Positions 9,811 through 30,327 of a DNA stretch of 64,000 bases are shown here, one piece after another. Source of the DNA: a virus; the IMG/VR virus record IMGVR_UViG_3300031951_021456, positions 183,933-247,932 of that record; one strand, 5' to 3'. A model generated the notes under the pieces. That model was not told the DNA's origin. It searched no databases and saw only the letters and a list, made by a program, of their open reading frames with translations. Each line of letters opens with the position of its first letter. Position 1 is the first letter of the stretch. The position numbers were made by a program, and so were the translations under genes.

Positions 9811-10238
9811 CCAATAAAGAGCTGTAAAACCGGTAATGTATAATTTAGCTCCACCAGTAATAGAGAACCCCCAATAAGCTCCTTAGTCGCCAAGAATGCC
9901 TTAAATGCAGCATCATTTAATGCATTATTTTTATGATATATTGTATTATATACTGCCTCTGAAGCGATATAAGCAAAACTATCTTTCATTTCCCCGTTAA
10001 TCATTATAACAGAAGGAATAATTGTTCTAATTTTAGTTAAATAACTGCACCTAGGCCCAATCATATAATTCTTTTCTTCATTAATAGATTTTAGACGTTT
10101 AATGGATAAAGTATCCAAGTAAATCCAGAAGTTCAATACATCTTTCCAATTGGGTCCTAGAAAACGTTCAGGGTACTCTAGAGCAGTTTGGTCATTTAAG
10201 AGATCTACAAATCTTTGATGTGTTGTAGAGATTTTCAT
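9798..10238 (-). CDS. NWKxVLNFW paralog family, copy 1 of 11 (146 aa)
   Basis: Unknown function. Contains the family N terminus (MKISTTHQRFVDLLNDQTAL, FLGPNWKDVLNFWIYLDTLS) and the C-terminal ELIGG...LNYTLPVLQL region in degenerate form; the usual LPLFLNL end is altered. The middle 50 residues are unlike the other copies. This is the only member on the reverse strand, lying between the Cys-rich gene and the DNA ligase with 4-base overlap to the latter. Confidence 0.82.
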   Translation of the reverse strand: MKISTTHQRFVDLLNDQTALEYPERFLGPNWKDVLNFWIYLDTLSIKRLKSINEEKNYMIGPRCSYLTKIRTIIPSVIMINGEMKDSFAYIASEAVYNTIYHKNNALNDAAFKAFLATKELIGGSLLLVELNYTLPVLQLFIGCDN

Positions 10239-11107
10239 AAATCATCCTCATGTCTGAAACCCAAAAACACTGCATGTCTTGGGAGATCCTTGACACCATG
10301 TTGAAAAAATTTATATTTTACATATTTACCAATATATTCTTCTTTATTGTTCCAAATTTCATCTCTCAGTTCGTCATTTAATCCAGAGCCTATTTTAATT
10401 ATTTGACCATCCTTATTTTTTGTAATAAGTTTGCCAGTTGTTTTAGCACCTATAAGACCCTCAATAGAAGTAGATCGCTTAATTCTACCAAAAGCATCCA
10501 ATTGAGCTTCATTCTCATTGTGCATTTTTTCCTCAATGTCAATAAGAATTGATTCTGCATCTTCAAATCTTTTAACTTTCAGAAGAATATTTTCATTAAC
10601 ACTTGATCTGCCAAACTTGTAAGTCCCATAAGGATCTCTTAGCATCATTCCTTCATAGCCATTGTTCAAATAGATTTCTTCTAGTTCATTTAATTGCTCT
10701 TGATTATAAATTGTAGTTCCATAAAGAATTTCATGATTAAGACTCTTAGGAATTAAAGGAAAGTTTAGAATTCTTAAGTAATATGGAAGAATTTCTGGTT
10801 CTAATGGATTCACATAATCAAATAACCAAACTTTAAAATCTGGCTCACCATCAATAGACATAACGGCAGATTGAGAATCTTGAAAGTTATTGCCTGAAGT
10901 TATTTCGCCATCAATTCCATCTGGCAATGTTTCTGAAAGAACTTTTTGAATGTATAGATTTCTTAAGGGTTTAAATGTTCTAGAAAGGGCAATTCCATCA
11001 ATCATGAGAAAACGAATGCCATCAATCTTTGGTGTTGCAATATATGGAAATTTAGCTTTCTCTGGGTTAAACTTTCCTGCAAGTAATGGCTTTTGAATTT
11101 TTGGCAT
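10235..11107 (-). CDS. ATP-dependent DNA ligase
   Basis: Seals nicks in duplex DNA using ATP. Motif I is ATPKIDGIRF near residue 25 (Lys adenylated), motif III-like GIDGEI near 66, motif IV GYEGMMLRDP near 150, motif V LLKVKRFED near 176. The remaining C-terminal 100 residues form the OB fold, including IKIGSGLNDELRDEIW. At 290 aa it is a compact phage ligase, shorter than T4 gp30 (487 aa) and more like small T7/bacterial-type enzymes. Likely joins Okazaki fragments with the replisome encoded to the right. No key residue is missing. Confidence 0.92.
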   Translation of the reverse strand: MPKIQKPLLAGKFNPEKAKFPYIATPKIDGIRFLMIDGIALSRTFKPLRNLYIQKVLSETLPDGIDGEITSGNNFQDSQSAVMSIDGEPDFKVWLFDYVNPLEPEILPYYLRILNFPLIPKSLNHEILYGTTIYNQEQLNELEEIYLNNGYEGMMLRDPYGTYKFGRSSVNENILLKVKRFEDAESILIDIEEKMHNENEAQLDAFGRIKRSTSIEGLIGAKTTGKLITKNKDGQIIKIGSGLNDELRDEIWNNKEEYIGKYVKYKFFQHGVKDLPRHAVFLGFRHEDDL

Positions 11108-12707: not shown

Positions 12708-12735
12708 ACTATACATGAGTTTCAAAATTTGTCAA
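12708..12735 (-). promoter_or_regulatory. Sigma70-like promoter for the leftward block
   Basis: Reverse strand TTGACA (12735-12730), 16-bp spacer ending CATG, TATAGT (12713-12708). Perfect -35 and a good -10. It faces away from the inverted-repeat segment and its -35 flank (GGTACTTGACA) is repeated at the right end of that segment. Confidence 0.8.
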
Positions 12736-12760
12736 GTACCTAAGGCGCTTATTAGCATTT

Positions 12761-12872
12761 CCTGACTTAGTATAAGTACCTATTGACAGACCTTCAATAA
12801 TCATGTACGCTCAGCTTTGTCAAAGATGATGCACGATAACTTAAGTGTCTTAAAGAACTTAAATACTCTTAA
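12761..12872. repeat. 112-bp inverted repeat, left arm
   Basis: Matches the reverse complement of 16319-16430 at 106 of 112 positions by direct comparison. All six mismatches fall in the spacer of the promoter inside the arm, while -35 TTGACA and -10 TACGCT are kept. The arms enclose 12.9-16.3 kb (tail-tube-like gene, uvsY, uvsW and small genes). Confidence 0.93.
12783..12811 (+). promoter_or_regulatory. Sigma70-like promoter reading into the uvsY-uvsW segment
   Basis: TTGACA 12783-12788, 17-bp spacer ending CATG, TACGCT 12806-12811, inside the left inverted-repeat arm. It would transcribe the AT-rich repeats and then 12996 onward. Confidence 0.72.
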
Positions 12873-12950
12873 AGATACTTAAGTTTTTTATATAACTTAA
12901 ATACTCTTAAGTAACTTAAAGAACTTAAATACTCTTAAAGATACTTAAGT
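12849..12950. repeat. AT-rich 36-bp direct repeats (iteron-like)
   Basis: A 36-base unit built from CTTAAAG/ACTTAAG words is repeated perfectly at 12849-12884 and 12915-12950, with a truncated 19-base copy at 12894-12912. The run continues into 12996. Very low G+C and location at the strand switch make it a candidate replication origin or regulator-binding array; neither is shown. Together with the promoters and inverted-repeat arm this fills the gene-free stretch 12655-12995. Confidence 0.8.
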
Positions 12951-12995
12951 AAGTTAAAGAACTTTAATAACTAATTAAAAACAAACTTAAATAAA

Positions 12996-19794: not shown

Positions 19795-21509
19795 TAATCT
19801 TAGAGAAAGTACGCTATAAAAATCTTCTTTCTATTGGAAACACTTTTACTGAAATTGAACTCAATAAAAACCCAACAACATTGATTGTAGGTAAGAATGG
19901 AAGTTCAAAGTCAACAGTAATTGAATCCATCACTTTTGCATTATTCAAGAAAGCCTATAGACCAATCAATTTACCTCAGCTCATTAATTCAATCAATGAA
20001 AAAGATTGTCTAGTTGAACTTGAATTTTCAATCAACTCAACCAAATGGATGGTGAGACGTGGACTTAAGCCAAATATATTTGAGCTTTATAGAGATGGAC
20101 AATTATTAGAACAAGATGCTTCAGCCATTGATCAACAAAGATGGTTTGAGCAAAATGTTCTTAAGATGAACTATAAAACGTTCATTCAAATTGTTATTCT
20201 TGGAAGTGGTAATTATATACCATTCATGCAATTACCACTTGCGCAAAGAAGAGAAATCATTGAAGATCTTTTAGATATTCGCATTTTCTCTTCAATGAAT
20301 GTTGTTCTTAAAGAAAAACTCAAGACAATCAAAGATGATTTAAAACAGCTCAATGTTTCTGAAAAGCATCTACACGATAAAGCAGTCATGCAAAGACGTT
20401 TCATTGATGAAATTGAAAAGGAGAGCAATACAAGAATCAATGAGAAACAACAGAGAATTGAAGGTCTCTCAAAAGTCATTGATAAGATGATCAATGACAA
20501 TAAAACTATTGAGAGTCAAATTCAAGAACTTAATCAACAAATCTCCGAGGTTTCAGCATCTTCAAATAAACTTAATCAACTTGGAACTTTAAAAGGTAAA
20601 ATCTCACAAAGAGTTGGAACAATTAATAAAGACTTAAGGTTCTTTCAAGAAAATTCAATTTGTCCAACATGTACTCAAAATATTGATGAAGAATTTAAGA
20701 CTAATAAGATTACAGAATACCAAAAATCATCAGAAGAGTTTTCTGGTGCTCTCTCTGAAATTAATGATGCTATTACTTCTCAAGAAGAAAAACAAAGACA
20801 GTTTTCAGCATTATCACAACAAATTGTTAAGTTGAATCAAAAAATCAGTTCACACAATATTCAGATTTCAACTGCCCAAAAACAGATTTCTGAATTGAAC
20901 GAAGAGATTGAATCAATTCAAGAAAATGTTCAAAATAGAAGTACAGAAAATGAAAAACTCTCTCAAATTGAGGAAGAGTTACTACAAGTTCAGACAGATT
21001 TCTTGAATAAAAAGGACTCTTTACAGTATTATGAATATATGGCTAGTCTTCTTAAAGATGGTGGAGTTAAGACAAAGATCATCCGTAAATACTTACCGAT
21101 CATTAATCAGTTGATCAATAAGTATCTGAATACGATGGATATGTTTATTAACTTTACATTTGATGAAGAGTTTAATGAAACAATCAATTCACCTTTACAC
21201 GATAACTTCTCTTACAGCTCATTCTCTGAAGGACAAAAACAAAGAATCAATCTGAGTATTCTTTGGACGTTTAGAGAGCTTGTAAAAATTAAGAACTCAA
21301 CAAATGTAAATCTTCTTCTGTTTGATGAGATTTTAGATAGTTCGCTAGATGATGCAGGAATTGAAGAGTTTATTAGAATTGTTAAGTATGTCTTTACTGA
21401 TACTAATACGTTCATCATTTCTCATAGAGAAGGTGTGACTGAAAAGTTTGAACACATTCTTGAATTTGAGAAGCAGGGTAACTTTAGCCGAATTTCAAAT
21501 ATAACTTAA
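19791..21509 (+). CDS. 46: gp46 recombination endonuclease subunit (SbcC/Rad50-like)
   Basis: SMC-like ATPase partner of gp47. N-terminal P-loop IVGKNGSSKSTVIESITFAL near residue 33, long coiled-coil arms (about 170-410) interrupted by a zinc hook NSICPTCTQNID near 292, then signature FSEGQKQRINLS and Walker B LLLFDEILDSSLDD near the end. 572 aa, like T4's 560. The P-loop has Ser where the usual glycine precedes the lysine (NGSSKST rather than NGSGKST), worth noting though the rest is intact. Overlaps the upstream gene by 4 bases. Confidence 0.95.
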   Translation: MIILEKVRYKNLLSIGNTFTEIELNKNPTTLIVGKNGSSKSTVIESITFALFKKAYRPINLPQLINSINEKDCLVELEFSINSTKWMVRRGLKPNIFELYRDGQLLEQDASAIDQQRWFEQNVLKMNYKTFIQIVILGSGNYIPFMQLPLAQRREIIEDLLDIRIFSSMNVVLKEKLKTIKDDLKQLNVSEKHLHDKAVMQRRFIDEIEKESNTRINEKQQRIEGLSKVIDKMINDNKTIESQIQELNQQISEVSASSNKLNQLGTLKGKISQRVGTINKDLRFFQENSICPTCTQNIDEEFKTNKITEYQKSSEEFSGALSEINDAITSQEEKQRQFSALSQQIVKLNQKISSHNIQISTAQKQISELNEEIESIQENVQNRSTENEKLSQIEEELLQVQTDFLNKKDSLQYYEYMASLLKDGGVKTKIIRKYLPIINQLINKYLNTMDMFINFTFDEEFNETINSPLHDNFSYSSFSEGQKQRINLSILWTFRELVKIKNSTNVNLLLFDEILDSSLDDAGIEEFIRIVKYVFTDTNTFIISHREGVTEKFEHILEFEKQGNFSRISNIT

Positions 21510-21519
21510 ATTAAACAAA

Positions 21520-21738
21520 ATGGAACAAAAAATTTCTATTACCCAAGATTTGATAGATCAACTGATCGTAAAATATAAAGATTTGTCTGACTACTGGGAC
21601 ATTGCAGCAGCAATCATTAATGAAATTTATCCACGAGAAGATAAAAGCGATGCAGAGTTTTATTATTATGTTCATGCCATTTGGGAATTAATTGACGACT
21701 ATGCAAGAAGGGACCGCTTAAAAAACTGGCACACATAA
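21520..21738 (+). CDS. Hypothetical protein, 72 aa
   Basis: Not recognised. Acidic, aromatic-rich helical protein (LSDYWDIAAAIINEIYPRED...IWELIDDYARRD). Its last codons encode part of the CTGGCACAC promoter box (21726 on), so coding and regulatory sequence overlap. Confidence 0.65.
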   Translation: MEQKISITQDLIDQLIVKYKDLSDYWDIAAAIINEIYPREDKSDAEFYYYVHAIWELIDDYARRDRLKNWHT

Positions 21739-21768
21739 GCAACACTTTTGTAGAATTTATGATAGATT
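21726..21768 (+). promoter_or_regulatory. CTGGC-class promoter
   Basis: CTGGCACACATAAGCAACAC box start 21726, extended -10 TGATAGATT with TAGATT 21763-21768. The first 21 bases of the box region are identical to those at 22453. Expected start about 21775, before 21805. Confidence 0.78.
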
Positions 21769-21804
21769 GCAATTAATCAAATTAATTTGAGGGTTCAATT
21801 TATT

Positions 21805-22410
21805 ATGGTTACTAGAACTGTTAATTTTAGCGATAACACACTTACTCATTATAGTGAATCAATTGGAGAAAATATACCCATAGATTGCATTGGAAATTTA
21901 ACACGAGAGGAATTACGCATTCTTACAAAAGAACTTGAATTTAGTCTAATAAACATTGAATCACAAATTGAACATTTAGATAAAGTTATTGAAACTAAAG
22001 AGGTGGCAATTAATGACGAGATTCACTTAAGATCAATTAAAGTTAGAACTGCACAAAAAATAAAGAAAAAATTTCTAGACAGGGTTAGAAGGGTAAGGGG
22101 TATAAATCCAGTCTTAGCAAGTAAATTTGTTTTACATTTTTATAGTAATGAGCTTGATAAAGAGTATGACGAATTTATGATTTCATATATGTCTAATGAA
22201 GAATTGCAAATTATTTCTGCCGAATTAAAACAAATTTTACGAAGAGAAAATGTCATTATAGAACATTATGATAATTCAATTTCCCCTAGCTCAGAAAATA
22301 AAGAAGAATGTAAAATTATTTCACTTAAAACTTCCCATAGTTATCACACAAAATTTTTACAACGTGTTATAAAAGAACAACGTAGACGAAAACCTCAAAA
22401 AAGAGTTTGA
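21805..22410 (+). CDS. Hypothetical coiled-coil protein, 201 aa, internally repeated
   Basis: Not recognised. Two similar halves: LTREELRILTKELEFSLINIESQIEHLDK...HLRSIKVRTAQKIKKKFLDRVRR and YMSNEELQIISAELKQILRRENVIIEHYDN...KIISLKTSHSYHTKFLQRVIK. This indicates an internal duplication of an about 85-residue helical unit with a basic end. ATG 21805 is chosen over an upstream TTG because GAGGG precedes it and the promoter start is near 21775. Confidence 0.7.
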   Translation: MVTRTVNFSDNTLTHYSESIGENIPIDCIGNLTREELRILTKELEFSLINIESQIEHLDKVIETKEVAINDEIHLRSIKVRTAQKIKKKFLDRVRRVRGINPVLASKFVLHFYSNELDKEYDEFMISYMSNEELQIISAELKQILRRENVIIEHYDNSISPSSENKEECKIISLKTSHSYHTKFLQRVIKEQRRRKPQKRV

Positions 22411-22515: not shown

Positions 22516-22830
22516 ATGACAGAAAACAAAGACCACTTTTGGAAATATAATGAAGGTGAGATTCTTAGAGAGATTGAAGAATATCTGATCGGAACCTATA
22601 ATGCTCATTATGTTGGGGATAATGGAATACAGGCAATGGATCTTATCTCAGCAATCGGTGATGGAGTTCCATTTTCACGCTCAAGTATCATTAAATATGC
22701 AAGCCGATATGGTAAGAAAAATGGGTTCTCAAAATCAGATTGTCTAAAAATCATACACTTCTGCATCTTTCTATATCACTTTTCAAATCACGATAAACAA
22801 ACAACTGAAAAATATGAAACTCTCTCCTGA
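22516..22830 (+). CDS. DUF3310-like protein, 104 aa
   Basis: The segment YNAHYVGDNGIQAMDLISAI, then FSRSSIIKYASRYGKKNGFSKSDCLKIIHFCIFLYHFS follows the pattern of phage DUF3310-type proteins (IKYxxRxGKK, LKxIHFxIFLY), sometimes called nucleotide kinase-like without proof. It ends 17 bases inside the sliding-clamp gene, so translation is coupled. Confidence 0.68.
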   Translation: MTENKDHFWKYNEGEILREIEEYLIGTYNAHYVGDNGIQAMDLISAIGDGVPFSRSSIIKYASRYGKKNGFSKSDCLKIIHFCIFLYHFSNHDKQTTEKYETLS

Positions 22831-23503
22831 AACAATTGAAATTCTTAGTAATTTCTCTTCTATTAATAACTCAATTATCATTTCTCCAGGAAGCGTAATT
22901 AAAACAATTAATTCTGAACGAAATGTTTTTGCAAAAGCAACAGTTCAAGAAACATTTCCTCGTGATATTCCAATCTATGAATTAAGAGAGTTTCTCAATA
23001 TCTTTAAAATTCATAAAGATGCTGATGTTGATTTTTCAGATGAACAATATATTCTAGTTCAACATAATCGCACTCGCATGAAGTTTTATTATGCAGATTT
23101 ATATTCTCTCTCTAAAAATTTAAATCTTCCTGACAGAGATTATGTACTTGATGATGTCGTTCTGAGTATTAATCTAGAATCTGAACAAATTGAAAGAGTA
23201 AGAAAAGCTGCAAATTATTACAGTCTTAATGATCTATCTTTGACTGGGGCTGAAGGAAGAATTGAGTTGCTAGTTCATAATAAAGAAGATTCAACCTCAA
23301 AGTCTTATAATGTTGAGATTGGTGAAACTGAAAATCAGTTTTGTTTCAATCTTATTGAAAAAAACATTAAGATTCTTTCGGGATCTTATATGCTTGAAAT
23401 TGCTAGAGTTAATGATAGTAATTTTGCAGCTAGATTCATCAATCAAAATCAAGAGCTTGAATATTTTATCGCTACAGAGCCCGATAGTTCTTATGACGAT
23501 TAA
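22814..23503 (+). CDS. 45: gp45 sliding clamp
   Basis: Trimeric DNA polymerase processivity clamp; in T4 it also activates late transcription with gp55 and gp33. 229 aa (T4: 228). Starts MKLSPETIEILSNFSSINNSIII and shows the paired two-domain beta pattern including VFAKATVQETFPRDIPIYEL and the second-domain LNLPDRDYVLDDVVLSI. First of the clamp and loader genes, but here separated from gp44 by three members of the NWKxVLNFW paralog family, an arrangement not seen in T4. Confidence 0.93.
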   Translation: MKLSPETIEILSNFSSINNSIIISPGSVIKTINSERNVFAKATVQETFPRDIPIYELREFLNIFKIHKDADVDFSDEQYILVQHNRTRMKFYYADLYSLSKNLNLPDRDYVLDDVVLSINLESEQIERVRKAANYYSLNDLSLTGAEGRIELLVHNKEDSTSKSYNVEIGETENQFCFNLIEKNIKILSGSYMLEIARVNDSNFAARFINQNQELEYFIATEPDSSYDD

Positions 23504-23858
23504 GATTTCCAAGACACATCAAAAATTTGCATATCGCTTAAAAGACCAAACTGCTCTAGAATACCCTGAACGTTTTCTAGGACCCAATTGGAAGAATGTA
23601 TTGAACTTTTGGTTTTATTTGGATACTTTGAGTGTTGAAGATTTTGAGATAGTTTATGATCGTTATTGGGATTTGGATGATCTGAGTGCCATAAAGAATC
23701 TTGCTTGGAAAGCTGTTAAAGATACTATAGAATATTATAATGCAAATGAAGCTTGGTGTGCTACTGCTGGTATTGCTACACGTTGCGCGACTTGTGAACT
23801 CATTGGCTCACACAATCTTAAGTCTTTGAATTTTCTTCCCTTGTTTTTGAATTTATGA
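23493..23858 (+). CDS. NWKxVLNFW paralog family, copy 2 of 11 (121 aa)
   Basis: Unknown function. Starts MTIKISKTHQKFAYRLKDQ, core FLGPNWKNVLNFWFYLDTLS at residues 32-51, variable middle rich in Trp/Asp, end CELIGSHNLKSLNFLPLFLN. ATG 23493 overlaps the gp45 stop by 11 bases and the next copy begins in its stop codon. Small, acidic to neutral, no signal peptide, no catalytic motif. Confidence 0.85.
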   Translation: MTIKISKTHQKFAYRLKDQTALEYPERFLGPNWKNVLNFWFYLDTLSVEDFEIVYDRYWDLDDLSAIKNLAWKAVKDTIEYYNANEAWCATAGIATRCATCELIGSHNLKSLNFLPLFLNL

Positions 23859-24250
23859 AAATCTCTAAGACTCATCAAACTCTTTCAGAAGTAATGGATG
23901 ATATAAGAGTTCTTACTGAACCTGAAAACTATCTAGGAACTAACTGGAAAGAAGTCTTAAATTTCTGGATCTTTCTAGATACTATGAATGAAGAGCAGTG
24001 GAATAGTATTAATGTTGCTTATTCTTCTTTAAGTTGGGATGAACGAGATGCTTCATTTCTAGAAATTCTTAATCTTGCTAGAGATCTTCGTGGTGTGCGT
24101 TCTGCATGGCTTGCTGCTTCTAGATATTATCTTGCTGCTTCTAGTTGTCGCGGGGCTTCTGGTTTTGCAACATATGAACTTATTAATTCTCATAAGCGTA
24201 AAAAACAAGGAAAATCTTTAGTCTATTTTCCATTATTTTTAAATATATGA
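23855..24250 (+). CDS. NWKxVLNFW paralog family, copy 3 of 11 (131 aa)
   Basis: Unknown function. More divergent N terminus (MKISKTHQTLSEVMDDIRVL, YLGTNWKEVLNFWIFLDTM), Ala/Ser/Arg-rich middle (WLAASRYYLAASSCRGASG) and end ATYELINSHKRKKQGKSL...LPLF type (YFPLFLNI). ATGA overlap with both neighbours. Confidence 0.85.
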   Translation: MKISKTHQTLSEVMDDIRVLTEPENYLGTNWKEVLNFWIFLDTMNEEQWNSINVAYSSLSWDERDASFLEILNLARDLRGVRSAWLAASRYYLAASSCRGASGFATYELINSHKRKKQGKSLVYFPLFLNI

Positions 24251-24843
24251 AAATTTCCACCTTTCATAATAATCTTAGTTTTATACTAGAAAATGAAGAA
24301 GTTCTTACTGATCCCTCATTATATTTGGGAAATAATTGGAAATCTATATTAAATTTTTGGTTTTATTTGGAAAACCTAAGTGAACATATAAAACAAAAAA
24401 TCTTAGAATTTGATAAAGAGGAGTATCATAATGCAGGTATTATAAAATATGTAGATTATATTTATCATATTCTTCCACCAGAAGAGGATTATATTTGGGA
24501 TGCAGTTAATATGAATTGTGAAGAAATTTCTTTAAATTGGTATTATGCCTGGGCAACTCTAGAAATTTTATGTCATGATAAAATTTTAAAGAACAATTTA
24601 GAATTGAAATTTCTACCACTTTTTATTCCACCAAAGCCAAAAATTGTTTTAGTGTCAACACCAAAGGGTGAGATGACTATGGACTATATGAAAAGTATAG
24701 TTAATAAATTTTATCCCAATCTTTTTGGTGATCTTCCCGGCGTTGAACCAATTTCTAGTCAAATGTCTAGTGAATACCTGGACATCTCTAGAAACGAGAT
24801 GCCAATTTTAGAACAAATACGAACTGGACGAACAATTTTTTAA
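24247..24843 (+). CDS. NWKxVLNFW paralog family, copy 4 of 11, C-terminally extended (198 aa)
   Basis: The first 125 residues are a family member (YLGNNWKSILNFWFYLENLS ... LEILCHDKILKN...LKFLPLFIPP). A further 70 residues (VSTPKGEMTMDYMKSIVNKF, ending EQIRTGRTIF) occur in no other copy here. The extension could be a fused gp44-proximal peptide or a partner-binding tail. It lies directly before gp44 (7-base gap). Confidence 0.82.
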   Translation: MKISTFHNNLSFILENEEVLTDPSLYLGNNWKSILNFWFYLENLSEHIKQKILEFDKEEYHNAGIIKYVDYIYHILPPEEDYIWDAVNMNCEEISLNWYYAWATLEILCHDKILKNNLELKFLPLFIPPKPKIVLVSTPKGEMTMDYMKSIVNKFYPNLFGDLPGVEPISSQMSSEYLDISRNEMPILEQIRTGRTIF

Positions 24844-24849
24844 CTTATT

Positions 24850-25794
24850 ATGAACGACGAATTTTTATTTACTGAACGACACAGGCCAAAATCTATTGAA
24901 GAGTGCATTTTACCTGAACAACTCAAAGAATATTTCACTGAAATAAAAGATTCTGGAAATGTCCCAAATCTTCTTTTATCTGGACCTTCAGGAACCGGAA
25001 AAACCTCTGTTATCTTAGCTCTAGCTAATGAACTTAACCGAGATTTCATGAAGATCAATGGAAGTGAAGAGCGAAGTATTGATGTTATCCGAAATAAGGT
25101 TAAGTCATATGCTTCAACTATTTCCCTTTCTTCAACTGGGAAAAAATTTCTACTTATTGATGAAGCTGACAATCTTACTCATGATGCTCAACTTGCCTTA
25201 AGGGCTTTCATTGAAGATTTTCAATCCAATTGTGTTTTTATTTTTACATGCAATTATAAAAATCGTATTGACAAAGCTCTCTGTTCTAGATGTATCAATA
25301 AAGAATTTATTTTCCCAGTTGAAGAAAAACCAAAGATTCTTTCTAGATTCTTTAAGGTAGTTTGTTCAATTCTAGAGAATGAAAATCTTGAGTATGACCA
25401 AAAAATTGTTGCATCATTTGTTGGCAAATACTATCCAGATTTTAGGAGAACACTTCTAGAACTTCAGGGTTATGCAAGAAAAGGTTCAATTGACGTTGGT
25501 ATTCTTGCAGTTTCTTCAGATGTCTCAGTTACTGAACTCTTTGAACATATCCGAAACAAAAATTATTCAAACGTCAGAAAATGGGTGATTGACAATATTG
25601 ATAATGACCCATCCATAACAATCAGAAGAATCTTTGATGAGTTATGGAAAAATGAAAAAATCGTTAAGACAACAATCCCTCCATGTGTTATACATCTGGG
25701 GAAATATCAAGATCTTGCAACTCGTGTTGCAGATCAAGAAATCAATTTAATGGCATGTATTACTGAATTAATGTACGAACTTGAATGGAATTAA
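24850..25794 (+). CDS. 44: gp44 clamp-loader large subunit
   Basis: AAA+ ATPase that, as a tetramer with gp62, opens gp45 and loads it on primed DNA. RFC-box motifs: TERHRPKSIEECILPEQLK, Walker A LLSGPSGTGKTSVIL near residue 40, Walker B FLLIDEADNLTHDAQLALRA near 103, sensor I FTCNYKNRID, Arg finger SRCIN near 145. 314 aa (T4: 319). The small subunit gp62 follows after three small genes rather than immediately. Confidence 0.95.
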   Translation: MNDEFLFTERHRPKSIEECILPEQLKEYFTEIKDSGNVPNLLLSGPSGTGKTSVILALANELNRDFMKINGSEERSIDVIRNKVKSYASTISLSSTGKKFLLIDEADNLTHDAQLALRAFIEDFQSNCVFIFTCNYKNRIDKALCSRCINKEFIFPVEEKPKILSRFFKVVCSILENENLEYDQKIVASFVGKYYPDFRRTLLELQGYARKGSIDVGILAVSSDVSVTELFEHIRNKNYSNVRKWVIDNIDNDPSITIRRIFDELWKNEKIVKTTIPPCVIHLGKYQDLATRVADQEINLMACITELMYELEWN

Positions 25795-25796
25795 TC

Positions 25797-26051
25797 ATGA
25801 ACCGAAATCAATCTGAAGATCTTGCATCACTCGCAGAAGTCTTTTATGCTAATTTGAATGAAGATTCAACTTGGGATAATCCTTTTGGCTATCACAAATG
25901 GAAGCCTGATACAATTATGACAATTTTAGGTGAGGAACCTGAAGGACAATTTAGCGAACTTCATCAAGATTCTCTAACTGATGAACAACGTCAATACGCT
26001 TATATGCTCTATAAGAATCTCCCTAACTTTATTAGTAGCAGTCATGAGTGA
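25797..26051 (+). CDS. Hypothetical protein between gp44 and gp62, 84 aa
   Basis: Not recognised. Acidic protein with SEDLASLAEVFYANLNEDSTW and DEQRQYAYMLYKNLPNF. ATG 25797 follows the gp44 stop by two bases; an alternative ATG 25785 would overlap it. The RQYAYMLYKNLP piece resembles the MQYAYYLYAL piece of gp62, hinting at a shared helix, but this is a short match. Confidence 0.65.
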   Translation: MNRNQSEDLASLAEVFYANLNEDSTWDNPFGYHKWKPDTIMTILGEEPEGQFSELHQDSLTDEQRQYAYMLYKNLPNFISSSHE

Positions 26052-26301
26052 AAACCCGCTTAATCAAGACATGAATGCCTCAAGATGGGCAATGGAATTT
26101 CATTCCATTCATGGTGGTGATGAAGAATTAATGAGAACTTGGTTTGCAAATGCAACTATGTGTGACTGGGATAATCATTTTCGGGTCACAAACCCATATG
26201 AAAATGATTCAATTCATATTCATTTTGACCCTAATAGCCCTAGAGGAGTTATATATAATGAGATATACCAAGATGTCGTATATGTAAATATAAATTTATG
26301 A
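26044..26301 (+). CDS. Hypothetical protein, 85 aa
   Basis: Not recognised. ATG 26044 (MSENPLNQDMNASRWAMEF) overlaps the upstream stop by 8 bases; a longer reading would run back inside the previous gene. His/Asp-rich C-terminal half (DNHFRVTNPYENDSIHIHFD). Confidence 0.65.
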   Translation: MSENPLNQDMNASRWAMEFHSIHGGDEELMRTWFANATMCDWDNHFRVTNPYENDSIHIHFDPNSPRGVIYNEIYQDVVYVNINL

Positions 26302-26474
26302 GTAGACAGGAATTATTAGCTAAAATTTATTCTGAGCTTGTGGTAAAAACTTTAATGGTTGTTGGACCTGTTGAAGTTGAAACCTATTCAGATGTTTATA
26401 AAGAAAACTGTGAAGCACTTTATAAAATAGCAAAAATCGCTTCTCGTGAATATAATCAATATGAATATATGTAA
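26298..26474 (+). CDS. Hypothetical small protein, 58 aa
   Basis: Not recognised. MSRQELLAKIYSELVVKTLM then an acidic/Tyr-rich helix. Begins in an ATGA overlap with the previous gene and ends four bases before the GTG of gp62, filling the gap exactly. Confidence 0.62.
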   Translation: MSRQELLAKIYSELVVKTLMVVGPVEVETYSDVYKENCEALYKIAKIASREYNQYEYM

Positions 26475-26479
26475 AAAAT

Positions 26480-26872
26480 GTGAATAACCCAGAACTTAAA
26501 GATTGGTTAAATTCAATCAATTTCTCTAAGGAAAATCTCTTAGATGAAACTCCAGAATCAGTTTCATCTTATCAGCCATACATCATCAATAAATGTATGG
26601 CTAGTCATTTAGATGCTATACTGTTTGTAAATGAGCTAAACCAACTTCCATATATTGATAAGCGAATGCAATACGCTTATTATCTCTATGCTCTAAGACC
26701 AAGAAAAAGATATGCCCCTTGGTTAAAAAGGGAAACCGCAGATAATCTTTCTGCGGTTAAAGAATATTATGGATTTAGTGACAAGAAAGCTTTAGATGCT
26801 TTAAAGGTTCTAAATAGAGACGAAATTATTTTCATTAAACAACGACTGAATAAAGGTGGATTTAAAAAATGA
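26480..26872 (+). CDS. 62: gp62 clamp-loader small subunit
   Basis: Fifth subunit of the gp44/62 clamp loader. The 130-residue chain has the cyanophage gp62 pattern: LKDWLNSINFSKENLLDE, YQPYIINKCMASHLDAILF, then KRMQYAYYLYALRPRKRYAPW near residue 75 and ending FIKQRLNKGGFKK. Starts with GTG, and the next gene (RegA) begins in its stop (ATGA). Shorter than T4 gp62 (187), as usual in cyanophages. Confidence 0.88.
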   Translation: MNNPELKDWLNSINFSKENLLDETPESVSSYQPYIINKCMASHLDAILFVNELNQLPYIDKRMQYAYYLYALRPRKRYAPWLKRETADNLSAVKEYYGFSDKKALDALKVLNRDEIIFIKQRLNKGGFKK

Positions 26873-27294
26873 GTGAATTGAACAAAGATGGATACATTAA
26901 TTGGGATTCATCCATGATGATTGAAGTGACACTTGATCAACCAGATACATTTTTGGTTGTTAAAGAAACACTTCAGCGTGTTGGAATTTGTAGTAAGCAT
27001 GAAAAGAAACTCTTTCAGAGTGCACATATTCTCCACAAATCTGGAAAATATTATATCGTTTCTTATAAAGAGTTATTTGCCCTTGATGGAAAGTATTGTA
27101 CTTTAACTCAATCTGATTTACAGAGACGTAATAGAATTGCAAAGCTTTTAAGTGATTGGGGCCTTATTACAATTGTTAATCCTGAACAAATTACAGATAT
27201 GGCTCCTTTGAGTCTTATTAAAGTTCTTGCATATAAAGATCGCCAAGATTATGAACTTATTACTAAGTACACAATTGGTGGAAAACGTAAGTGA
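26869..27294 (+). CDS. regA: RegA translational repressor
   Basis: RNA-binding protein that represses translation of early mRNAs by covering their start regions. Aligns with T4 RegA: MIEVTLDQPDTFLVVKETLQ, RVGICSKHEKKLFQSAHILH, KYYIVSYKELFALDGK, RRNRIAKLLSDWGLITIV and the end KYTIGG. 141 aa against T4's 122, with a 16-residue N-terminal extension; the internal Met at MMIEV would give the T4-like length. Five paralog-family genes follow directly, the first starting with GTG inside the regA stop. Confidence 0.93.
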   Translation: MSELNKDGYINWDSSMMIEVTLDQPDTFLVVKETLQRVGICSKHEKKLFQSAHILHKSGKYYIVSYKELFALDGKYCTLTQSDLQRRNRIAKLLSDWGLITIVNPEQITDMAPLSLIKVLAYKDRQDYELITKYTIGGKRK

Positions 27295-27773
27295 AAATCT
27301 CGAGGTCACATAGACGCTTTGCACTTTGTTTAGAAGATCAAACTGCTCTAGAATATCCTGAGGATTTTTTAGGACCTAATTGGAAGGATGTACTGAACTT
27401 CTGGATTTATTTGGATACTTTAAGTGAGGAACAGATAAAAATTGTTATAGAGAGTTTTAATGTAGTATGTCCAGTTGAATATACTGCTTATTATGGTTTC
27501 CTTGTGCATTCTGACTATAATGGTTTTCAAGGTGATGCTATGAATGCTGCTCAAAAAACATCTAATTTTTTTATTGAAGCTTCTGCATCAGCAGTTTGTA
27601 GCTCTTCTATAGCTGTTGCTACAGATACTAATAACCTTTACATAAGCTCTATAGACTATATAAAATCTGGCAACTGGGCTGCAGGTCGTGCAACCTATGA
27701 ACTAATCGGTTCACACTTTCTCCTAGATAACAACAAACCATTAACCTTTTTTCCATTGTTTTTAAATTTGTGA
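27291..27773 (+). CDS. NWKxVLNFW paralog family, copy 5 of 11 (160 aa)
   Basis: Unknown function. GTG start overlapping the regA stop. N terminus VKISRSHRRFALCLEDQTAL, core FLGPNWKDVLNFWIYLDTLS, the longest variable middle among the typical copies (about 75 residues, Ser/Ala/Tyr-rich), end ATYELIGSH then TFFPLFLNL. The first 60 bases are nearly identical to those of copy 6, suggesting recent duplication or gene conversion. Confidence 0.86.
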   Translation: MKISRSHRRFALCLEDQTALEYPEDFLGPNWKDVLNFWIYLDTLSEEQIKIVIESFNVVCPVEYTAYYGFLVHSDYNGFQGDAMNAAQKTSNFFIEASASAVCSSSIAVATDTNNLYISSIDYIKSGNWAAGRATYELIGSHFLLDNNKPLTFFPLFLNL

Positions 27774-28129
27774 AAATCTCGAGGGCACATAGACGCTTTG
27801 CACTTTCTTTAGAGGATCAAACTGCTCTAGAATACCCTGAACGTTTTCTAGGACCTAATTGGAAGAATGTACTGAACTTCTGGATTTATTTGGATGATTT
27901 AAGTGTTGATAAACTTTCTATAATTTATGCACATTATCATGATTTGAGAGACGTGCATACATTAAGGAGTCTTGCAGTGAAAGCTGCTGTAGATACTATA
28001 GGTGGTGAATATAAAACTGCAGCCTGGTGTGCCACTACTAATTCTATTGGGGTTTTGGCAATTTACGAACTCATTGGCTCACATAATCTTGAGACCTTGG
28101 CATTTCTTCCTTTGTTTATAAATCCATGA
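27770..28129 (+). CDS. NWKxVLNFW paralog family, copy 6 of 11 (119 aa)
   Basis: Unknown function. GTG start in the preceding stop. Same N terminus as copy 5; short middle with the piece VDTIGGEYKTAAW, which recurs in copy 11 at 53 kb although the surrounding middle differs. Ends IYELIGSHNLETLAFLPLF. Confidence 0.86.
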   Translation: MKISRAHRRFALSLEDQTALEYPERFLGPNWKNVLNFWIYLDDLSVDKLSIIYAHYHDLRDVHTLRSLAVKAAVDTIGGEYKTAAWCATTNSIGVLAIYELIGSHNLETLAFLPLFINP

Positions 28130-28563
28130 AAATCTCTAAAACCCATCAACGATTTGCAGACCGTTTAAGAAACCAAAGAGCCTTAGAACATCTAGAAGAG
28201 TTTCTAGGACCTAATTGGAAGGATGTCTTGAACTTTTGGCTTTATTTGGATACTTTAAGTTATGATCAGTGGAAGAGTATTATTGATGCTTATTGTTCTT
28301 TAAGTCACAATGAACGCCAGCTTGCTCGTCGGGCTTCCTGTGTTGCTGCCCGAGCTGTTGCTGCTAGTTATGCTGCTGGTGATGCTGGTTTTTATGCTGC
28401 TGGTGATGCTGGTTTTTATGCTGCTGGTGATGCTGGTTTTTATGCTGCTGGTGATGCTGGTTTTTATGTTGCTGGTTATGCAACTTATGAACTAATGGGT
28501 TCACACATACTTAAATCTCAAGGTAAATCTTTAGTCTCTCTTCCACTGTTTTTAAATGTATGA
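28126..28563 (+). CDS. NWKxVLNFW paralog family, copy 7 of 11, with AAGDAGFY repeats (145 aa)
   Basis: Unknown function. Standard N-terminal core (FLGPNWKDVLNFWLYLDTLS) and C-terminal ATYELMGSHILKSQGKSL. The middle holds four perfect 8-residue repeats AAGDAGFY encoded by a 24-bp tandem repeat (28372-28467) plus a degenerate fifth. Repeat number could change by slippage without shifting the frame. Confidence 0.86.
   Translation: MKISKTHQRFADRLRNQRALEHLEEFLGPNWKDVLNFWLYLDTLSYDQWKSIIDAYCSLSHNERQLARRASCVAARAVAASYAAGDAGFYAAGDAGFYAAGDAGFYAAGDAGFYVAGYATYELMGSHILKSQGKSLVSLPLFLNV
28372..28467 (+). repeat. 24-bp tandem repeat, 4 copies
   Basis: Four consecutive identical 24-base units (start GCTGCTGGTGATGC) in the variable region of paralog copy 7, followed by a partial, mutated unit. 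In frame. Confidence 0.95.
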
Positions 28564-28979
28564 AAATCTCTAATACACACAAAGAATTTGCTGACCTCTT
28601 GAATAACCCAAGAGCCTTAGAATATCCTGAGGATTTTTTAGGCCCTAATTGGAAGGATGTCTTGAACTTCTGGATTTATTTGGATACTTTAAGTGATGAT
28701 CAGTGGAGTATTATTGAATCTCTCCACGTAGAACTTGGTTACCCTAAATGGAATGAAGGTAATTTAAATGGAAGACAAGAATATTGGCATGTAGTTGCAA
28801 ATAGTGCTTACAAAACAATTAGAGAATATGCAGGCTATGCTGCTCTTGCAGCATCTGGTGATTATCATTGGACGGCTGCTTCTGATGCAACTTATGAACT
28901 TATCGGTTCTCATAAACTTAAAGAACAAGGAAAACCCCTAACCTTTCTCCCACTTTTTAATTATCAACCATCTCTTTAA
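28560..28979 (+). CDS. NWKxVLNFW paralog family, copy 8 of 11 (139 aa)
   Basis: Unknown function. MKISNTHKEFADLLNNPRAL, core FLGPNWKDVLNFWIYLDTLS, middle with EGNLNGRQEYW and AGYAALAASGDYHW, end ATYELIGSHKLKEQGKPLTF then LPLFNY. ATGA overlap with copy 7; 10-base gap to copy 9. Confidence 0.86.
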   Translation: MKISNTHKEFADLLNNPRALEYPEDFLGPNWKDVLNFWIYLDTLSDDQWSIIESLHVELGYPKWNEGNLNGRQEYWHVVANSAYKTIREYAGYAALAASGDYHWTAASDATYELIGSHKLKEQGKPLTFLPLFNYQPSL

Positions 28980-28989
28980 CAATTAAACC

Positions 28990-29445
28990 ATGGAAAACCA
29001 ACTTACACAATCAAAATGTTTTACTGAATTTTCAAAAGCATTGAATAACCCAAGAGTTTTAGAAGCTCCAGAAGAGTTTTTAGGTGATAATTGGAAAAGT
29101 ATTTTACAATTTTGGAACTATTTGGATAGTTTAAGTGATAATGATTTGGAAAATATTGCAGAAAGATTTTTAAATTTACCTAAATTTTCTAAAACTTTCT
29201 CCTTTAAATTGTGCTTTGATGATAATCTTTTAGAAGCTCTTACAGGTCTTTGTTGTGAAACTTTAATGTTAATTAAACTTTGCTCTATACCATGTTATAT
29301 AAAATTAAGTCATCATGTAAATACTGTTATATCTTTAGCTTTGTGTGAATTGTTAGTTAAGAATAAACTAAATGATTCATCTCTAGAAACAGAACCTTCA
29401 ACATTCTTACCACTATTTGATTTTGACCCACAGACCAATACATGA
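28990..29445 (+). CDS. NWKxVLNFW paralog family, copy 9 of 11, divergent (151 aa)
   Basis: Unknown function. Core FLGDNWKSILQFWNYLDSLS is recognisable; the middle is hydrophobic and Cys-containing (LTGLCCETLMLIKLCS) rather than Ala/Tyr-rich, and the end is LCELLVKNKL...FLPLFDFD. It is last in the RegA-linked array and the only one there without stop/start overlap. Confidence 0.8.
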   Translation: MENQLTQSKCFTEFSKALNNPRVLEAPEEFLGDNWKSILQFWNYLDSLSDNDLENIAERFLNLPKFSKTFSFKLCFDDNLLEALTGLCCETLMLIKLCSIPCYIKLSHHVNTVISLALCELLVKNKLNDSSLETEPSTFLPLFDFDPQTNT

Positions 29446-29916: not shown

Positions 29917-30327
29917 ATGCAATTAGCACATAGTTTTTTTGATGATCTATACAAGGGTTCAATCGCTCTTGATGGTTTCTTTGACCGAGTTTATCCGATC
30001 TCTGAAACTTACAATTCATATCCGACAGAGGATGTCATTCAAGAAACTGATTCTAGGCTCAGAGTTGAACTTGCCCTTGCAGGTTTTGACCGTTCAGAGA
30101 TTAAAGTTTATACAGAAAATGGTAAACTTTATGTTGAAGGAACACTACAATCAAAACCAGATGAAAAATATCTTGTGAGAAACATCGCCCAAAGAAATTT
30201 TCGTTGGGGTAGAGTTCTTCAAGAACAGTTGCAGGTTGATTCAGTTTCCTTTGTTAATGGAATCTTGAAAATCACACTAAACCGTCACACCCCAGAACAC
30301 GAACTGCGAAAGGAATATTCATTCTAG
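29917..30327 (+). CDS. hsp20: Hsp20 small heat-shock protein
   Basis: ATP-independent chaperone of the alpha-crystallin family; a core gene of T4-like cyanophages, thought to protect scaffold or photosynthetic proteins during infection. N-terminal arm FFDDLYKGSIALDGFFDRVY, then the crystallin domain from about residue 40: IQETDSRLRVELALAGFDRS and KPDEKYLVRNIAQRNFRWGR, ending with the usual GILKITL strand. 136 aa, typical. A strong ribosome site AAAGGAG lies seven bases before ATG. A hairpin follows at 30341. Confidence 0.94.
   Translation: MQLAHSFFDDLYKGSIALDGFFDRVYPISETYNSYPTEDVIQETDSRLRVELALAGFDRSEIKVYTENGKLYVEGTLQSKPDEKYLVRNIAQRNFRWGRVLQEQLQVDSVSFVNGILKITLNRHTPEHELRKEYSF

Follow-up and report, generated by a model that had tools for sequence, protein, structure and literature searches.

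Recombination in bacteriophage T4 increases the copy number of the anti-toxin gene tifA (PMC9391042), and SegB amplifies anti-defence loci (PMC13096335). Here, we analysed a gene family in a 64 kb window of a 247,932-bp contig (referred to as G000) from an uncultured T4-like phage, without terminal repeats, which shares with the tifA type of system the presence of tandem copies with signs of recombination. The nearest relatives of the G000 gp43 were those of Synechococcus myoviruses (cyanomyoviruses), at approximately 50%, and a search of G000 for psbA as a sign of a cyanophage host found none.

Eleven ORFs of the family had been listed in the window by the first-pass annotation, and all were confirmed at the coordinates given in Table 1, where each copy is named by its first position. 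These ORFs aligned over their full length, contained no internal stop and matched their own profile with E-values of 4e-38 to 1e-49. The shared core was found in all 11 copies, but the C-terminal signature ELIGSH...LPLFLN, also attributed to the whole set, was altered in five: copy 24247 has ATLEIL...FLPLFIPP ahead of its long tail, copy 28990 has LCELL...FLPLFDF, copy 9798 has LPVLQLFIG, copy 52455 has ATRELF at the signature, and copy 52850 has lost LPLF, with SFLLTHLNL in its place. Two copies with extended C-termini, one in the window (24247-24843) and one in the related contig G001 (81653-82237), have a PKIxxxSTP-like stretch in common after the LPLF tail, at different slots.

Table 1. 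Family copies and flanking genes in the window
Feature	Position	Strand	Remark
Family copy, 146 aa	9798..10238	-	Start overlaps stop of upstream gene 10235-11107
Sliding clamp gp45	22814..23503	+	Flank of first array; phrog_223, E 4e-62
Family copy, 121 aa	23493..23858	+	Opens the three-copy array between gp45 and gp44; ATG overlaps gp45 end
Family copy, 131 aa	23855..24250	+	ATGA overlap with copy 23493
Family copy, 198 aa, divergent	24247..24843	+	C-terminal tail of ~60 aa
Clamp loader gp44	24850..25794	+	Flank; phrog_168, E 1e-103
RegA translation repressor	26869..27294	+	Flank of second array; phrog_242, E 1e-53
Family copy, 160 aa	27291..27773	+	GTG overlaps regA stop; opens the five-copy array between regA and Hsp20
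Family copy, 119 aa, typical short form	27770..28129	+	AlphaFold2 pLDDT 96.1
Family copy, 145 aa	28126..28563	+	Ala/Gly/Asp/Tyr 8-residue repeats kept in centre
24-nt tandem repeats	28371..28490	+	Centre of copy 28126
Family copy, 139 aa	28560..28979	+	
Family copy, 151 aa	28990..29445	+	Most divergent of its array
Hsp20 gene	29917..30327	+	Downstream of second array; phrog_432
Family copy, 132 aa	52455..52853	+	
Family copy, 128 aa	52850..53236	+	32-nt central piece common with 27770

The family had been described as embedded in a T4-type replication operon. This setting was confirmed by PHROG matches to gp45, gp44, gp62, regA, Hsp20 and gp43, but only eight of the 11 copies are located within it; the gene upstream of copy 9798 is DNA ligase-like by PHROG. 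When the whole contig was searched with the 11-copy profile, 41 places were detected, corresponding to 40 copies of the module and one core-only protein. Because the 40 copies are spread over approximately 15 places of the contig, the replication operon represents one location among many. The family totals approximately 17.3 kb (about 7% of the contig), nearly all copies are intact, and stop-start overlaps (ATGA or GTGA) were found at 20 copy-to-copy junctions, a pattern suggesting translational coupling.

Several further features of G000 were recorded. The core-only protein, of 385 aa (G000 92617-93771; L028:12617-13771), contains only the first 43 or so core positions (VLENPEQVLGPNCKSILDFWESLD), fused to an unrelated region, and is reciprocally matched in G001 by an ORF at 21499-22029. 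G000 has a single HNH nuclease match (98141-98245; PF01844, E 7e-13, in a 199-aa frame), flanked by copies 97505 and 99465 in the region where divergent and full-length family copies are found; this nuclease is a possible amplifier of the family copies. In G001, one GIY-YIG match was found instead (123654-123902). Outside the family, self-comparison detected a repeat of approximately 233 nt (window ~12720-12952), 83% identical to G000 65965-66178.

Two longer copies in G000, at 99465 and 101655 and thus outside the window, carry an extra N-terminal domain with the motif CMCAQG, and the short copies begin two residues ahead of the ISxxH motif of this long form. Using a DNA pattern taken from the conserved NDS....P..VLT.PE stretch, we detected 12 full-length relatives in unrelated viral contigs, and a search with the full-length alignment detected at least 91 viral contigs, as against only four loci in 84,980 genomes (one genome per species). 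In hhalign, the window copies matched the full-length family with 99.4% probability (E 2e-21), the whole short form being aligned with long-form residues 78-226. This full-length CMCAQG/AAxDAAW family (L047-L143; BFVD A0A6J7XDA0 and A0A6J7XFP3) and the window copies have the same core (IS..H, then PE..LG.N, then VL.FW..LD), the same position of the centre and the same FLPxF tail; the tail motif E[IL]xG ... F[LV]PxF is altered in copies 52850 and 9798. In contrast, the N-terminal domain with its invariant CMCAQGQ was present in the two other G000 copies but absent from all 11 window copies, and the window genes were therefore classified as a truncated branch rather than as full members. The centre of the full-length family is usually an Ala-rich AAxD/AAxA repeat (AAxDAAW-type), the length of which varies from phage to phage; this repeat is clear in copy 28126 and in the relative G001, but eroded in most G000 copies and for the most part missing from the other window copies. 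In addition, the full-length family usually occurs at one or two copies per record, whereas its short form is amplified approximately 40-fold in G000.

In one full-length relative, L100:2452-3138 (+), the tail motif occurs as a tandem duplication (AWATNEIQGAAWATNEIQGA), resembling the duplication in G000 copy 9217; by their sequence, the two duplications appear to reflect slippage close to the same joint, although the phages are unrelated. Thirteen apparent relatives in IMG/VR were rejected, being 100% identical pieces of the same phage wherever alignments were shown.

The first-pass annotation knew of no described function for the family, and the profile searches led to a parent family which is itself uncharacterised. 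Pfam and NCBIfam, with sub-threshold Pfam matches set aside, and PADLOC, the models of which cover defence systems and not counter-defence, contained no curated model or match; tblastn of 50,697 phage records and 72,556 plasmids did not detect the family, a sequence search for relatives of solved structure gave none, and no description of the CMCAQG/core family was found in the literature that was available for searching. The function-unassigned phrog_8332 matches one place in G000: in-register alignments were obtained with the core of copy 28126 as well as with full-length members, but copy 28126 was the only significant one in the window (1.4e-5), through a partial, Ala-rich alignment to which composition contributes, and no window copy gave a significant match to the whole profile. 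The CMCAQG/core family is undescribed, its copy number is unusual and its centre is diversifying.

The typical short form, copy 27770, was predicted by AlphaFold2 as a compact, all-helical protein (mean pLDDT 96.1), and a full-length form from G001 was modelled at a pLDDT of 84.2, only the Ala-rich stretch being of low confidence. Neither the short nor the long model had a Foldseek match in the PDB, and in the viral library the full-length model matched only uncharacterised phage proteins (A0A6J7XDA0 and A0A6J7XFP3, both uncharacterised Caudovirales proteins).

To follow the family between genomes, G000 was compared with G001 (243,166 bp), which is largely collinear with it, many core genes being 60–85% identical, and which contains approximately 29 family matches, five of them full-length. 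At the nine collinear slots, the copy numbers in G000/G001 were 5/2, 5/1, 3/0, 1/2, 1/1, 2/3, 1/3, 3/1 and 5/0; array size was thus unequal at eight of nine. In a tree of 73 copies and relatives, five label changes between groups were counted, as against 28 with shuffled labels, and the copies thus cluster by genome and not by slot, although the branching within genomes has little resolution and the main G000 group leaves out a few divergent G000 copies. The interruption of many copies in relatives, named in advance as evidence for neutral decay, was seen to a small extent: approximately five of 29 G001 copies are broken by frameshift, stop or truncation, indicating birth and death of copies.

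Exchange between copies has also left traces. The 5' ends of copies 27291 and 27770 are identical at 129 of 150 nt, and copies 27770 and 52850 share an exact 32-nt central piece, both in agreement with the first-pass annotation. Copies 8077 and 179379 have 102 identical nt of core, with centres only 16% identical, and other distant pairs have 54–62 identical bases in common, nearly all within the core. Long identical cores with differing centres, together with the shared central piece, point to exchange between copies in which the cores would serve as homology. Short internal duplications, read from the translations, were observed in several centres and suggest slippage as an added source of change. 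The concerted evolution between the collinear genomes and the mosaic copies support the earlier proposal of ongoing duplication and recombination.

Finally, we analysed selection on core and centre, using pairs of copies with centres of equal length and at least 30% identity, hence gap-free. Over all 23 such pairs, dN/dS was 1.45 for the centre and approximately one third for the core. In 500 random sets of five disjoint pairs, analysed by simple counting at transition/transversion weights of 1, 2 and 4, the median dN/dS was 1.54, 1.79 and 2.07 for the centre and 0.35, 0.45 and 0.57 for the core, respectively, and at weight 1 the one-sided p was below 0.05 in 93% of the sets; five hand-chosen pairs gave 1.87 for the centre and 0.36 for the core. 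Synonymous divergence was alike in centre and core, which argues against misalignment, while the simplicity of the counting and the small number of pairs make the evidence for positive selection good rather than final. The centre changes at or above the silent rate and the core is under purifying selection, in support of the scaffold with a diversifying centre that had been proposed from the sequence. The column entropy of the centre followed a helical period (permutation p 0.016; 51-residue class, seven copies), a pattern to be expected from conservation of buried positions and variation of exposed ones, and the variable positions would accordingly lie at the surface of the predicted protein.

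These values bear on a possible, though rather unlikely, alternative, in which the family expanded through recombination with little benefit to the phage, the ends recombining and looking conserved owing to gene conversion while the centre drifts. The strong turnover and homogenization of copies, and the broken copies in G001, are in line with such an expansion. However, the dN/dS of the centre was above 1 and not at 1, nearly every G000 copy is intact, with stop-start overlaps joining the copies into chains, and the core values of 0.35–0.57 indicate protein-level selection, not merely homogenized DNA.

A recognition, adaptor or decoy role, as suggested in the first-pass annotation, may reasonably be ascribed to the copies. 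We tentatively favour, at a little below an even chance, a recombining and probably translationally coupled repertoire of small binders against variable host factors, most likely acting in counter-defence. In this scenario, the full-length form, consisting of the CMCAQG domain, core, variable helical centre and FLPLF tail, would have lost its N-terminal domain (we infer the direction of this loss), and the compact helical module left behind has been multiplied approximately 40-fold among the core genes of a T4-like phage. Each array would probably be made from the mRNA of the preceding gene, as the observed overlaps suggest. Crossing-over and gene conversion between near-identical cores and tails may have moved copies, changed array length and joined one core to different centres, with short-repeat slippage adding length changes, all as judged from sequence patterns. 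The core and tail are conserved and the centre is under pressure to change, as the dN/dS above 1 shows with modest statistics, and many binding surfaces could thereby be held against variable host proteins in infection, by analogy most plausibly as inhibitors of host defence. A search for an anti-defence identity of the copies found none, and the usual occurrence of the full-length family at one copy per record counts against this reading, indicating that a repertoire is not the general habit of the family.

Alternatively, the copies could be adaptors or a host-takeover set that redirects phage or host enzymes rather than inhibiting defence. The arrays do lie within replication-gene operons, adjoining gp45, gp44 and regA, and elsewhere the full-length gene adjoins recombination genes, its neighbours including exonuclease, RecE-like and single-strand-annealing genes. 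We nevertheless regard this as unlikely, since copies are also found at many unrelated places and 40 diversified copies would not be required for a single essential function as adaptor. The same setting makes a role in decorating the virion or surface, through variable receptor-like faces, quite improbable: a conserved frame with a variable centre would suit such a role, and one pair of copies adjoins an endolysin-like gene, but several arrays lie in replication operons and, among the neighbours of the full-length gene that can be recognised, replication/recombination genes predominate. Mutation of the centre by a diversity-generating retroelement, which the hypervariable segment between fixed ends might recall, can be dismissed as highly improbable, since neither the G000 nor the G001 record contains a reverse transcriptase (PF00078) match, length changes are many and the variation is spread over many genes. 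DNA mimicry was rejected, the acidity of the copies being only mild (mean net charge -3.5).

Although phage genomes are compact, approximately 7% of G000 is spent on one undescribed module. Should the copies prove to be a repertoire of host-factor binders, new inhibitors of bacterial defence could readily be drawn from them, and they would represent a natural case of diversification driven by gene conversion in a phage. The wider family, present in at least 91 viral contigs but lacking a curated model or solved fold, has been missed by phage annotation, an omission that can now be remedied.

The tifA (PMC9391042) and SegB (PMC13096335) cases resemble G000 in that T4-like phages gain copies of small accessory genes by recombination. 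In those cases, however, the copies are recent, near-identical dosage repeats obtained under laboratory selection, whereas G000 is a natural genome in which the copies have become fixed at scattered places and have diverged, the others being 27–55% identical to copy 28126 rather than near-identical and dosage-acting; the likeness is therefore one of route and not of membership. More speculatively, and with less assurance than for the binder repertoire itself, the approximately 40 copies may be expressed as diversifying proteins of unsolved fold, with positive selection on the surface of the centre and gene conversion between copies. Each virion would then have a ready repertoire against many host proteins, following a logic like that of the multigene families of large eukaryotic viruses.
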